DNA of 22,392 nt from positions 1-22,392 of the IMG/VR virus record IMGVR_UViG_3300024344_000139. One strand, written 5' to 3'. Positions 2,882 through 18,373 of this stretch are shown in pieces (the first letter of the stretch is position 1; each line of letters starts with the position of its first letter). Below the pieces are notes generated by a model. It worked only from the letters and a program-made list of their open reading frames with translations. It was not told the origin of the DNA and did not search any database. The position numbers and the translations under genes are program-made. The DNA comes from a virus.

Positions 2882-3451
2882 ATGGCTGAAATGAAAGTAT
2901 ATCAAAGAGACCATTTTAGAAGTAAAATAAATGAACTTTTAAATCCCGAAATAGAAAAAGAGGAAATGTTGTTATCTTCTACTATTGCGGATATGACCGA
3001 ATCAGCGGAAAAAAATCTAGCTAAAAAGATTGGCGCTGATACAATTATAACTGATTTAGAGAAAGCTGAGCAAGAACTTGAAAAAGCTCAAAACAAGGCA
3101 AAAACTTTTTTCAGGCGTGTTTCAAGAAAAAAAGTGTCTTATAAAAAATCTTTAGACTATCATTTTGATCGTAATGAAAGGTCAAACGATATTACTCCTA
3201 AAAAATGTAAAGAACAAATCAGAACTTGGGCTGAAAAACTGGCTGAAAAAGAAGCTGAAAAACTTCCTATTGGAAAGCGTATATCATATTTAAGGGCGGT
3301 TAAAACTAACGCCAATGATAGCGTTATGGAAGCTCACGTTGGTTCAGATTTAAAAGATTTGTTAGGCGATATATTAAAACCGCTTGGCTTGACTTGGCAA
3401 CGTCCACTTCCAGCGATTGCGCCACCTTCTGAAGATAGACCAGAAGACTAA
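2882..3451 (+). CDS. Hypothetical coiled-coil protein, 189 aa
   Basis: This is a 189-residue charged protein I do not recognise. Residues about 15-80 are strongly helical with heptad-like spacing (LEKAEQELEKAQNKAKTFF), a probable coiled coil. The middle is basic (RRVSRKKVSYKKS), followed by a second helical stretch (WAEKLAEKEAEKLP). The C-terminus is Pro-rich and probably flexible. The pattern suggests an oligomeric, possibly nucleic-acid-binding protein. It has its own promoter-like dyad and AGAAAGG site upstream, and another dyad directly after its stop, so it looks like a single-gene cassette. Confidence 0.7.
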   Translation: MAEMKVYQRDHFRSKINELLNPEIEKEEMLLSSTIADMTESAEKNLAKKIGADTIITDLEKAEQELEKAQNKAKTFFRRVSRKKVSYKKSLDYHFDRNERSNDITPKKCKEQIRTWAEKLAEKEAEKLPIGKRISYLRAVKTNANDSVMEAHVGSDLKDLLGDILKPLGLTWQRPLPAIAPPSEDRPED

Positions 3452-5600: not shown

Positions 5601-5644
5601 TTAACCTTGTTTCGTGGTCCGAGTTCTGATAGACTCGGACCACG
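5596..5644 (+). other. AATAATTAACCTTG element plus 12-bp perfect hairpin
   Basis: The 14-base AATAATTAACCTTG (5596-5609) overlaps the stop of the DUF2958 gene. Four bases on, CGTGGTCCGAGT (5613-5624) and ACTCGGACCACG (5633-5644) form a perfect 12-bp stem with an 8-base loop. There is no T tract, so it is not a classical terminator. The ribosome-binding site of the next gene lies outside the stem. An RNA-processing or 3'-end stabilising structure is possible. The same 14 bases precede another hairpin at 6537-6568. Confidence 0.7.
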
Positions 5645-5663
5645 ATTAATAGAAAGGAACAAA

Positions 5664-5951
5664 ATGACTAGAAAACATTATACTATTGAACCTGCCAACA
5701 ACTCATATGGTGACGAAAATGCTGTAGTTGTTTATGGTTGGGGTGTTTATGCTCAAAGCAGCGTTCTTGCCGGTCAACAATCAAAAAAATATATGGATAA
5801 ATATGGTTCTGTTGAATTGGCTTTAAAAGATTATCCTAATGCGGAAGTTTTGGAGCATATCGCTGAGACGGGTAATACTTTTGATCATCTACCTGATACT
5901 GAGATGAATGCTTATGAGGAGGAGAACTATTTTTATGGTGATGACGAATAA
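5664..5951 (+). CDS. Hypothetical protein, 95 aa
   Basis: This 95-residue acidic protein contains AVVVYGWGVYAQSSVLAGQQ (about residues 20-39), a strand then a Ser/Gly-rich turn and helix, followed by LKDYPNAEVLE and an acidic tail (NAYEEENYFYGDDE). I do not recognise a named family. The ATG at 5664 is chosen because AGAAAGGAAC is 6 bases upstream; a longer frame from 5607 would translate the GC-rich hairpin. No clear promoter lies between the hairpin and the gene, so it may be read from the upstream promoter. A strong terminator follows. Confidence 0.7.
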   Translation: MTRKHYTIEPANNSYGDENAVVVYGWGVYAQSSVLAGQQSKKYMDKYGSVELALKDYPNAEVLEHIAETGNTFDHLPDTEMNAYEEENYFYGDDE

Positions 5952-5974
5952 CTAATTATTATTCAATATCCAAG

Positions 5975-6002
5975 AACCCCGCTCAATGTAGCGGGGTTTT
6001 TT
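5975..6002 (+). terminator. Rho-independent terminator
   Basis: AACCCCGCT (5975-5983) and AGCGGGGTT (5990-5998) form a 9-bp stem with a 6-base loop, ending in six T (5997-6002). It ends the cassette of the 95-aa gene. The 130 bases after it are A+T-rich low-complexity DNA (ATT repeats) leading to the next promoter-like region. Confidence 0.9.
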
Positions 6003-6074
6003 ATAACCTGAACAATAAAGGCGGCCCAGTGATTATATTTCCATTATTTATTATTATTATTCTATTATTTTTAT

Positions 6075-6116
6075 TTGATATCATTCGTTTATTATTATAA
6101 AGTATTTTAATACTTT
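6075..6116 (+). promoter_or_regulatory. Weak promoter-like segment and 8-bp inverted repeat before the 131-aa gene
   Basis: TTGATA (6075-6080) and TATAAA (6096-6101) are 15 bases apart, shorter than ideal. AAAGTATT/AATACTTT (6099-6106 and 6109-6116) is a perfect inverted repeat with a different sequence from the TCC...GGA dyads. AGAAAGG follows at about 6120. Position after a terminator supports a promoter here. Confidence 0.4.
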
Positions 6117-6132
6117 AACAGAAAGGAATAAT

Positions 6133-6528
6133 ATGCCATTAGTAGCACATTTTGAAGAAATCAAAGATTATAAGAATCTTTGTTATCTTAAGTCCAAAGA
6201 TAAAAAGGGGAAGACTGTTTATGAATTAAGTCCCATTACTTTTTATTTAAGGTCTAATTGTCTCAGTGTTGGAATCTGGGAACTAACAGAAAAAAACTAT
6301 AAGGAGTTTTATTATCGTTGCATCTTTCAGGATACATTAAGGGGAATTAAACCTTTTTATAATAAAGATGATCACAATGAAACTTACTCGATTACCCTTG
6401 AACAAGTGAAAGAGCATATCGGTTTACGAGTTGATCGATATCGTTACTGGTTAAATGAAATGACCAGATCCCAATTCTTATCCAAAGAATATAAATCGTT
6501 TAAGGAACAATTAAAAAGAGACGAATAA
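6133..6528 (+). CDS. Hypothetical protein, 131 aa, just upstream of the terminase region
   Basis: This 131-residue protein starts MPLVAHFEEIKDYKNLCYL and is mixed alpha/beta, with a basic C-terminal helical part (HIGLRVDRYRYWLNEMTRSQF). No family is recognised. Its place directly before the large terminase gene would suit a small terminase subunit. However, I see no helix-turn-helix or coiled-coil oligomerisation layout, and a promoter and structured gap separate it from terL, so I do not call it that. AGAAAGGAATA precedes the ATG. The stop is followed at once by the AATAATTAACCTTG element. Confidence 0.7.
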   Translation: MPLVAHFEEIKDYKNLCYLKSKDKKGKTVYELSPITFYLRSNCLSVGIWELTEKNYKEFYYRCIFQDTLRGIKPFYNKDDHNETYSITLEQVKEHIGLRVDRYRYWLNEMTRSQFLSKEYKSFKEQLKRDE

Positions 6529-6581
6529 TTAACCTTGCGTCCAGGTACATGCAATATGTCCTGGACGCCAGCTGCAGCTGG
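6524..6581 (+). other. AATAATTAACCTTG element, bulged hairpin and 14-bp palindrome
   Basis: After AATAATTAACCTTG (6524-6537), GCGTCCAGG (6537-6545) pairs with CCTGGACGC (6560-6568), and ACAT/ATGT (6547-6550 and 6556-6559) extends the stem past a single bulged T. Then CCAGCTGCAGCTGG (6568-6581) is a perfect 14-bp palindrome. No T tract follows. The block lies between the early cassettes and terL. A packaging-site, processing or termination role is possible but not shown. Confidence 0.7.
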
Positions 6582-6589
6582 CCCATTAA

Positions 6590-6616
6590 CCCCACCCCCC
6601 TAACCCCCTAACCCCC
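6590..6616 (-). other. Four-tract G-quadruplex motif
   Basis: On the minus strand the sequence reads G5-TTA-G5-TTA-G6-T-G4, four G tracts with 3, 3 and 1-base loops. This satisfies the usual G-quadruplex rule. On the plus strand it is C4-A-C6-TAA-C5-TAA-C5, a telomere-like CCCCCTAA repeat. It is a strong outlier in this A+T-rich intergenic setting, 148 bases before the terL ATG. Confidence 0.75.
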
Positions 6617-6725
6617 TAAATAATAAAGAAGCTACAGTTTTTTTTCTAGCTCCGGCCCTGTTTGACAGAAACGCACGCCCTAAAATCTATACCACCCCTA
6701 AATAATATATTGGGACCCCTATTTC

Positions 6726-6754
6726 TTGATTATCCCATAAAAATAATATATAAA
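6726..6754 (+). promoter_or_regulatory. Promoter immediately before terL
   Basis: TTGATT (6726-6731), a 17-base spacer and TATAAA (6749-6754) match the early cassette promoters at 4523 and 5039. The -10 ends 9 bases before the terL ATG at 6764, so a transcript from it would have almost no leader. ATCCCAT lies in the spacer. The gap 6617-6725 shows nothing else clear. Confidence 0.5.
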
Positions 6755-6763
6755 AAATTTGCT

Positions 6764-8200
6764 ATGCATAGTGAAGCCGAATTACAAGAACAGTTAGTAT
6801 TAGAGCACATAAAAAAATTAAATGAAGCGGAAAAAAATTTTATTCCTTTTGTTCGACATGTGTGGCCTGATTTCATATCTGGGTACCATCATCGAAAAAT
6901 TGCAGAAAAATTTGAAGCAATTAAGGATAAAAAAATAAAGCGTCTGATTGTCAATATGCCTCCAAGGCATACGAAGTCAGAATTTGCTTCCTTCCTATTT
7001 CCGTCGTGGCTCGTGGGCAATAATCCTCAATTGAAGATTATTCAAACTACTCATAACACAGAGCTAGCTGTTCGTTTCGGCCGTAAAATGAAAAATCTTA
7101 TCGACAGTCCAATCTATCAACAAGTTTTTAATGAAGTCGCGATATCCGCGGACAGTAAAGCAGCTGGCCGTTGGGAAACAAACAAAGGCGGCGAGTATTT
7201 TGCAGCGGGCGTTGGTTCAAGTATCACGGGCCGTGGTGCAGATTTATTGATTATTGATGATCCGCATTCGGAACAAGATGCACTATCCGAAACGGCATTT
7301 GATAATGCCTATGAATGGTATACCTCCGGTCCAAGACAACGTCTACAGCCAGGAGGAAGCATTGTCATTGTTATGACACGTTGGTCCGTGAAAGATTTAA
7401 CAGGCAGATTGATTGACGCGCAAGCAAAAGAGCCTAAAGCAGATCAGTGGGAGGTTATAGAATTTCCAGCCATATTACCAAGTCAAAAACCTATTTGGCC
7501 GGAGTACTGGGACATTGATTCGTTGACCGCGACCAAGGCTTCACTGACCGAACAGAAATGGCAAGCACAGTGGCAGCAAAATCCAACAGCAGAAGAGGGC
7601 AGTATCATCAAGCGTGAATGGTGGAATAAGTGGGAAGAAAAAGAAATACCTGATCTGATACACGTCATACAAAGTTATGATACGGCGTTTAGTAAAAAAG
7701 AAACGGCCGATTACAGCGCCATCACCACGTGGGGTATTTTTACACCGCCTAACAAAGCAAGTCCGCATATTATATTAATGGACGCAGAAAAAGGAAGATG
7801 GGAGTTTACAGAGTTAAAAAAGCGTGCTATGGAGAAGTATAAGTATTGGGAGCCGGAAACAGTGATTGTGGAAGCAAAAGCCTCTGGACTTCCTTTAACA
7901 GATGAGTTAAGATCAACTGGAATTCCCGTTGTGAATTACACCCCGAGTAGGGGACAAGATAAACACGTTCGGGTAAATTCCGTGGCACCGATGTTCGAGG
8001 CCGGTCAAGTATGGTATCCGGACGAGCGTTGGGCAGAAGAGGTGATAGAGGAGTGTGCGGCTTTTCCTTTTGGCGACCATGATGACTATGTGGATTCAAC
8101 CACGCAAGCATTACTGCGTTACCGCCAAGGCAACTTCATACAACTCCCCGATGACTACTACGACGAACCACGGAACAGGGAACAAATGGAGTATTACTAA
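6764..8200 (+). CDS. terL: Terminase large subunit, 478 aa
   Basis: This is the ATP-driven DNA packaging motor, which moves phage DNA into the prohead and cuts it. The ATPase half has Walker A NMPPRHTKSEF (about residues 64-74), the QTTHNTELAV adenine/coupling region, Walker B DLLIIDDPH (160-168) and the VIVMTRWS coupling motif. The nuclease half has the RNase H-like acidic set: QSYDTAF (D306), VIVEAKASG (E370) and GDHDDYVDS (about 437-445). Length is normal for the family. The ATG at 6764 is used. The only longer frame begins with a TTG at 6662, without a ribosome-binding site, and would add 34 untypical residues. Even the ATG has no clear ribosome-binding site. The gene is visibly richer in G+C than the early region. 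Confidence 0.95.
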   Translation: MHSEAELQEQLVLEHIKKLNEAEKNFIPFVRHVWPDFISGYHHRKIAEKFEAIKDKKIKRLIVNMPPRHTKSEFASFLFPSWLVGNNPQLKIIQTTHNTELAVRFGRKMKNLIDSPIYQQVFNEVAISADSKAAGRWETNKGGEYFAAGVGSSITGRGADLLIIDDPHSEQDALSETAFDNAYEWYTSGPRQRLQPGGSIVIVMTRWSVKDLTGRLIDAQAKEPKADQWEVIEFPAILPSQKPIWPEYWDIDSLTATKASLTEQKWQAQWQQNPTAEEGSIIKREWWNKWEEKEIPDLIHVIQSYDTAFSKKETADYSAITTWGIFTPPNKASPHIILMDAEKGRWEFTELKKRAMEKYKYWEPETVIVEAKASGLPLTDELRSTGIPVVNYTPSRGQDKHVRVNSVAPMFEAGQVWYPDERWAEEVIEECAAFPFGDHDDYVDSTTQALLRYRQGNFIQLPDDYYDEPRNREQMEYY

Positions 8201-8298: not shown

Positions 8299-9663
8299 AT
8301 GGCAAGAGATGATAGAGTAGCACAATTAATAGATCTATTAAGAGACGCAATTTCATCTGGTGATGATGATTTGGCGCAAGTAGTCAGGTCTGATTTGTTT
8401 AAAGAATTTGGATTGGAAATGAATAAAGGTGGCATTGCTTCTTTTTATGCAAATGGTGGTAAAGTAAAAATACCGCAATTATCAACAGACGTAGCAAACA
8501 TCACTGATGTTTATGAAGCAATAGATGATCCATCTTATGTACGAGACACAACAAGAATAGATAATTTACGAAGAGGATCTAAAGTTACAAGAAAAATGGG
8601 TTATGATAAAATATTTGAAACATTTGAAAAAAAAGGAATTAATCGAGCAACCATTAAAAAATTTAAAAACATTCCTAAGATTGCAGATTTTGATAATGCA
8701 AAAGATTTTAGTAATGCATTAAAAAAATTTAGAGAGACAGCTTTTAAAGGATTAACTGATAAGCAAATTAATACAATTCGAAGTTCTGGATTTTTATCAA
8801 ATTATGCAAAAGATGTAAGAAGTGCTTTACCAGATTTTGGTAAAGGGGCTAGTAGAAGAATGATTAATACAGCATTAAATGAAATGTATGATTATGTTTT
8901 TATGACACCAGAATCAGCTGTTGGTGTTAGAAAACCTAAAATACAATCTAAAATTTATACACAAATACGCGAAACAGGTAGAAACACTTTAAATAAAGCA
9001 CAGCAACTTAATTTAGATTATGCCTTATCACAAGTGGATAAATTATTTAAATCTGGTAACGTGGCAAAAGCAGGTAAAATGTTAGCAGCTATTTCTACAA
9101 TGGTTGCCAAAGGTGTTTTCGCAAGAGTGCCTGGAATAGATTTACTTATTACATCAGAAATGGGCAGTGGTGAATTACCAGAAGAAGGAACACCGGAATA
9201 TGAAGAACTTATGCAAAGTATAGAACAAAAAAACCAAGGAGGAATGATGAACATAGATTATATGACAAGACCACTTGGCTATGCTAATGGTGGTTTTGAA
9301 GATCGTATGGAAAGACTAGAACGAGAAATGATGGACACGGAAATGGAAAGAAGACAAGACATGGCAACAGGTGATCCAGAAATGGAAAGAGACAGCACCT
9401 ATGGAACTATAACAGACGATAATATTATTAATATTGCGTTGCAAATAGCTCGTGAACAAGGAAATACATCTGATGAAAATATTAATTTAATTATAGATCA
9501 GTTATCAGCGATTACTCCTTCTTTCGAAGAAACCATGAGAAAAGAAACAGGATATATTGTACCTAAAGGATTATCATCTCTTAAAGAAAAATTAGATGTT
9601 TTTTTAGGTTTGAGATCTGATCCTATGTTAAGAAGAGATGTGGGATTTGAAAGAGTAAAATAA
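8299..9663 (+). CDS. Uncharacterised 454-aa protein between terL and portal
   Basis: This protein has no fold I can name. The N-terminus (about 1-40) is helical and acidic, followed by MNKGGIASFYANGGKV (41-56). A long basic, Lys-rich helical middle (about 70-270) leads to KMLAAISTMVAKGVF and a second Gly-rich motif, MMNIDYMTRPLGYANGG (about 316-332). The next part is acidic and Met/Glu/Arg-rich (DRMERLEREMMDTEMERRQD), and the last 90 residues are helical. The repeated YANGG motif recalls linear motifs in unannotated marine-phage proteins. Its place between terL and portal suggests a head-assembly, portal-vertex or injected protein; that is inference. AGGAAATATT precedes the start. Base composition drops sharply in G+C from terL. 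Confidence 0.8.
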   Translation: MARDDRVAQLIDLLRDAISSGDDDLAQVVRSDLFKEFGLEMNKGGIASFYANGGKVKIPQLSTDVANITDVYEAIDDPSYVRDTTRIDNLRRGSKVTRKMGYDKIFETFEKKGINRATIKKFKNIPKIADFDNAKDFSNALKKFRETAFKGLTDKQINTIRSSGFLSNYAKDVRSALPDFGKGASRRMINTALNEMYDYVFMTPESAVGVRKPKIQSKIYTQIRETGRNTLNKAQQLNLDYALSQVDKLFKSGNVAKAGKMLAAISTMVAKGVFARVPGIDLLITSEMGSGELPEEGTPEYEELMQSIEQKNQGGMMNIDYMTRPLGYANGGFEDRMERLEREMMDTEMERRQDMATGDPEMERDSTYGTITDDNIINIALQIAREQGNTSDENINLIIDQLSAITPSFEETMRKETGYIVPKGLSSLKEKLDVFLGLRSDPMLRRDVGFERVK

Positions 9664-18355: not shown

Positions 18356-18373
18356 GTGGGGCTTCGGCCCCAC
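18356..18373 (+). terminator. UUCG-tetraloop hairpin between virion genes
   Basis: GTGGGGC and GCCCCAC form a 7-bp stem closed by a C(TTCG)G tetraloop, one of the most stable RNA loops. Only AGTTCTT follows, so termination would be weak. Partial termination or mRNA-end protection between the 304-aa and 139-aa genes is likely. Confidence 0.65.

Follow-up and report, generated by a model that had tools for sequence, protein, structure and literature searches.

In SPP1, the late promoters, with an overlapping pac, stand before the terminase genes and no other copy of the promoter was found; one of them, PL1, combines a good -10 with an atypical -35, and late transcription requires an early factor (PMC6316719). 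In T4 and further phages, CUUCGG hairpins are a common feature of intergenic DNA (PMC8948821), and it is known from bacterial transcript data that clusters of hairpins can serve as terminators (PMC8355165). The SAR11-group phages are among the commonest marine viruses, and little is known of what turns on their late genes. The transcriptome study of HTVC027P gives the timing of its genes, while its main text, as searched, mentions neither promoters nor start sites (PMC12753301).

The window, i.e. the whole stretch of DNA analysed here, is a 22.4-kb virus record. Its TerL is 61-66% identical to those of HTVC027P, HTVC023P and 023Pt_psg01, and about 35 IMG/VR contigs carry a TerL ~90% identical to it. 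Because of these identities to the cultured and the IMG/VR phages, we place the window phage, as judged by its TerL, within or adjoining the HTVC023P-type pelagiphages; its putative SAR11 host is assigned through this relationship only. When positions 6400-6900 were compared at the DNA level with phage records no real homolog was found, and the TerL search of genome_contigs returned a single match, on one MAG contig. Rfam gave no match above the gathering score and no tRNAs were found. In the window, the rightward late operon opens with terL (6764..8200, plus strand, with its ATG at 6764), no Shine-Dalgarno-like sequence lies 5' of that ATG, and the last gene before the block (6133..6528, plus strand) encodes 131 aa without a family match. 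The TerS proteins of the HTVC phages gave no significant match when compared against the window, and the ORF at 2882-3451 is not recognisable as a TerS. Elsewhere in the window, positions 1127-1597 of the minus strand match the pyrimidine dimer DNA glycosylase family (PF03013) above the Pfam cut-off, possibly marking a DNA repair gene. A perfect 13-bp hairpin (TCGTGGTCCGAGT/ACTCGGACCACGA, 5612-5645) lies in or adjoining the start of the ORF at 5607-5951, the true start of which may be further downstream. A GTGGGGC-TTCG-GCCCCAC hairpin occupies an intergenic gap of the window in the sense orientation (18356-18373), and the cultured HTVC027P has a matching hairpin, GGGGCTTCGGCCCC, likewise intergenic and in sense, at ~36127 of its record.

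An earlier note on this DNA had drawn attention to a hairpin, a palindrome and a G-quadruplex motif before terL, at the early/structural boundary, and had considered such a concentration unlikely by chance. All three structures are present and the boundary is correctly placed, with some amendments to their build. The bulged hairpin (6537..6568, plus strand) begins 9 nt past the stop codon and has 9 pairs in its outer stem and 5 in its inner one, with a bulge of one base between the two. Its position is terminator-like, without the form of an intrinsic terminator, i.e. a GC-rich stem and then a U-tract: the U-tract is absent 3' of 6568, and an intrinsic terminator scan of 5900-6900 finds none. 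The palindrome GCCAGCTGCAGCTGGC (6567..6582) has two bases in common with the hairpin and measures 16 bp instead of the 14 bp given before. The G-quadruplex motif GGGGGTTAGGGGGTTAGGGGGGTGGGG runs on the minus strand from 6616 to 6590; it is the sole G3+ quadruplex motif of the window, its G4Hunter score is strong, and all three plus-strand C5+ runs of the window lie inside it. As for chance, when the entire window was shuffled 200 times with its dinucleotides kept, 2 of the shuffles contained any G3+ quadruplex motif. A lone palindrome of 16 bp is unremarkable (0.6 expected per shuffled window, with a second real one at 8326-8341). The RNA fold of 6525-6665 has a z of -3.6.

To compare the block among relatives, 40 distinct upstream regions were aligned, and mean pairwise identities were computed among the 23 lineages having a complete terL. 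Neither the palindrome nor the four G tracts are kept. What is kept, in 40 of 40 relatives, is one C-tract with its flank, the core CCCCTAAAT of box A (CCCCCTAAATA, 6612..6622, plus strand), situated at the last tract of the G motif, a conserved feature that the earlier note had not singled out. One or two more copies occur downstream of this core; in the window these are the conserved middle element TTGACA...GCCCTAAAAT (6662..6686), which is box B in the register of the relatives, and a further copy, CCCCTAAATA (6695..6704), and GGGACCCC (6712..6719) is a variant of a motif, GGGACTCC/GGAGTCCC, that is seen repeatedly in this region of the relatives, all on the plus strand. Directly 5' of the terL ATG stands a promoter-like TTGATT - 17 nt - TATAAA with constant spacing (6726..6754, plus strand). 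Mean identity among the 23 lineages was 100% for the box A core, 87% for the promoter stretch and 69% for the middle element, as against 52% for the four-fold sites of terL and 27% for the hairpin/palindrome slot. By these values the boxes are under selection and the slot is free to change. The -35 and -10 of the window are weak with respect to the sigma70 consensus and are missing from the list of the consensus scan, and since the hexamers returned for the window clade by the automatic -10 search are ambiguous, it is conservation that supports a promoter in this clade.

The control region is single-copy. In a 52-kb relative the CCCTAAAT box occurs solely before terL, and an extra copy of the box elsewhere was seen in only 2 of 19 long contigs. 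We had also considered TTGGAGTCCC as a genome-wide regulator site and rejected it, none of nine contigs having more than a single copy. The C-box pair is absent from the cultured HTVC023P and HTVC027P. In 023Pt_psg01 (L084), another direct repeat, GGGCCCACCCACCCC, occurs twice, ~65 bp apart, ~100-200 bp before terL; lying in the equivalent gap, it is possibly a counterpart of the C-boxes.

More distant relatives separate the element from terL. Clades at 65-75% TerL identity carry plus-strand C5+ tracts, ~55-100 bp apart, 5' of the gene with which the rightward operon opens, and in five lineages (L054, L058, L063, L066 and L068) the C-tracts are separated from terL by 0.7-2.1 kb that includes other genes, so that the C-tract element follows the operon start, not terL. 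In L063, L066 and L059 the C-tracts are followed by a perfect TATAAT and by a ribosome-binding site, with a C-tract 46-58 nt before the -10; where this leader is missing, most clades have a C-tract 62-71 nt 5' of the ATG. Were transcription in the latter to begin at the ATG or close to it, the box would for the most part start at about -60 to -70, a usual place for an upstream activator. Among early proteins selected from the 52-kb relative, Pfam searches detected TerS and no transcription activator.

The slot after the last early gene holds an intrinsic terminator in several relatives and hairpin arrays in about half. The window itself has an intrinsic terminator 5' of its last early gene (AACCCCGCT-CAATGT-AGCGGGGTT and TTTT, 5975..5998, plus strand), and in L088, L115 and L117 near-identical terminators stand at the end of the early region, immediately 5' of the block. 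C(UNCG)G tetraloop hairpins in the slot, counted with stems of at least 4 pairs, number 49 in the sense of the rightward RNA and 0 in the opposite one, the independence of these counts being overstated by the relatedness of the copies; a looser UUCG count gives 47 to 0, again in the rightward sense. As RNA, UNCG loops have exceptional stability, and this, together with the one-sided orientation, indicates a role in the rightward RNA. The tally of U-tract terminators by strand is uninformative, as symmetric hairpins score on both strands. The structures of the window are partly shared, in that a CCAGG/CCTGG-stemmed hairpin stands at nearly the same distance in seven lineages, the window included, and a CAGCTGCAG core similar to the window palindrome is seen in three other lineages only. 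Long stacked arrays of differing hairpins were observed 100-900 bp 5' of terL in L095, L101, L094, L116 and others, with hairpins such as CCCCCTTCGGGGG, TACTACATCTAGTAG, TGCGACAAAATGTCGCA and CGCCTGCGGCG stacked in the gap before box A. Perfect DnaA boxes, TGTGGATAA, lie within hairpin arrays at ~-190 and -570 from the anchor in L089, L094, L104, L116 and others, and the 52-kb relative has four of them, two less than 600 bp from the late start.

Considering the conservation, position, single copy and orientation of these elements, we on balance favour the interpretation that the block forms the upstream portion of an early-to-late transcription boundary, consisting of a terminator slot, repeated C-boxes and a late promoter. 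The hairpin and palindrome, in a slot that changes fast and follows the last early gene, would act as RNA, stopping or trimming read-through. The conserved CCCC(C)TAAATA direct repeats would serve for binding, presumably of a late activator of the phage, the downstream box starting ~60-70 nt before the presumed start site, and activation would lead a sigma70-like promoter directly 5' of the first late gene (terL in the window) to fire the operon. A transcription block was among the candidates raised earlier and is the best supported of them, through the terminators and sense hairpins of the relatives and the conserved promoter-like stretch. Against it speak the weak -35 and -10 of the window, the missing U-tract of the window hairpin, the failure to find an activator gene among the selected early proteins, and the absence of the C-box pair from the two cultured phages; a single-copy site would also be suited to packaging.

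The alternative that fares best is a pac site, at which TerS would recognise the C-boxes and headful packaging would begin nearby; it could overlap the late promoter, and we regard it as possible, if rather doubtful. A single copy per genome, adjoining terL, with direct repeats and an invariant core, is what could be expected of a pac, in SPP1 the late promoters 5' of the terminase genes are overlapped by pac (PMC6316719), and related genomes were circularised via terminal overlaps (PMC9599517), as permuted ends would give. However, the element stays with the operon start rather than with terL in several clades, and in the 52-kb relative TerS (Pfam Terminase_2) is encoded 6.7 kb upstream of the anchor. 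The record starts of the cultured HTVC023P and HTVC027P fall on a CDS start, so that these records look rotated by convention and are uninformative on genome ends. One scaffold gap coincides with box B; homopolymers and hairpins can cause such gaps. A somewhat more tentative proposal would join the two functions, with the CCCC(C)TAAATA box pair as an undescribed late-switch element of HTVC023P-type phages, where a phage protein might couple late transcription and the start of packaging at one site.

Termination by Rho, with the C-rich, G-poor RNA past the hairpin serving as a loading site that stops early read-through, seems unlikely. The composition would suit it, with 53 C vs 15 G in 6583-6740 and the largest C-over-G excess of the window in the 100-nt stretch from 6581, as would the C-tracts always being on the RNA-sense strand and a hairpin that has no U-tract, but Rho loading sites require neither an invariant CCCCTAAAT nor a steady distance from the promoter.

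That the G-quadruplex is itself functional, as a block to polymerase on the minus strand, we consider improbable, even though it is the only such motif in the window, with a strong score, and G-tracts on the same strand recur in several clades. Four tracts are present in just 3 of 40 relatives with loops of 1-7, and in 8 of 40 when loops up to 12 are allowed, and the conservation falls on the CCCCTAAAT sequence and not on the number of tracts. In L108 the box is triplicated in a different way (CCCCCCTAG repeats), and L115 and L117, the most like the window in the stretch of the G motif, are yet without the four-tract motif. Because of the sparse occurrence of four tracts with short loops, this triplication and these two lineages, the telomere-like motif is best read as a lineage-specific tandem expansion of box A. 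Judged from the alignments, no parts of the control region are less conserved than the quadruplex and the palindrome. A conspicuous G-quadruplex motif can, as this case shows, arise as a by-product of the tandem expansion of a conserved box.

A replication origin with iterons and hairpins, the replication-related site of the earlier note, is no more credible: there are direct repeats and an AT-rich stretch, and perfect DnaA boxes lie upstream in 14 of 43 relatives, but this distribution is patchy, no GC-skew inflection is seen at the site (the anchor in the 52-kb relative), and DnaA boxes are absent near the site in the window and anywhere in HTVC023P or HTVC027P. Least probable of all is the suggested cos cut with cohesive ends at the block, for which its place adjoining terL and a size and repeats like those of a cos region would speak, since the ends of 80 TerL contigs show no peak there and contigs of 46-52 kb cross the element and extend for more than 13 kb beyond it in both directions, observations that are silent on pac.

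The transcription boundary that we favour can be set beside the known systems. It resembles a lambda-type cos region in having non-coding repeats adjoining the terminase genes, and differs in that the element moves with the operon start instead of those genes and in that fixed ends were not detected. As with the intergenic CUUCGG hairpins of T4 and further phages, C(UUCG)G hairpins are carried by the relatives of the window, on the sense strand only (PMC8948821); the hairpin of the window block, in contrast, has a long loop that is not UNCG, and arrays occur in the relatives only. The clustered-hairpin terminators consist of hairpins just past a stop codon and spaced by less than 15 nt (PMC8355165), an arrangement with which the hairpin and palindrome of the window agree. 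The closest parallel is with PL1/PL2-pac of SPP1, likewise a single-copy control region heading the terminase/late operon (PMC6316719). In SPP1, the first gene is terS and is overlapped by pac, whereas terS of the window phage would lie elsewhere, and the putative binding repeats of the window phage are CCCC(C)TAAATA. For a widespread lineage, these conserved boxes offer a concrete and testable candidate site of late control and perhaps also of packaging; the control region is real and partly conserved, ordinary in kind, and new in its boxes.
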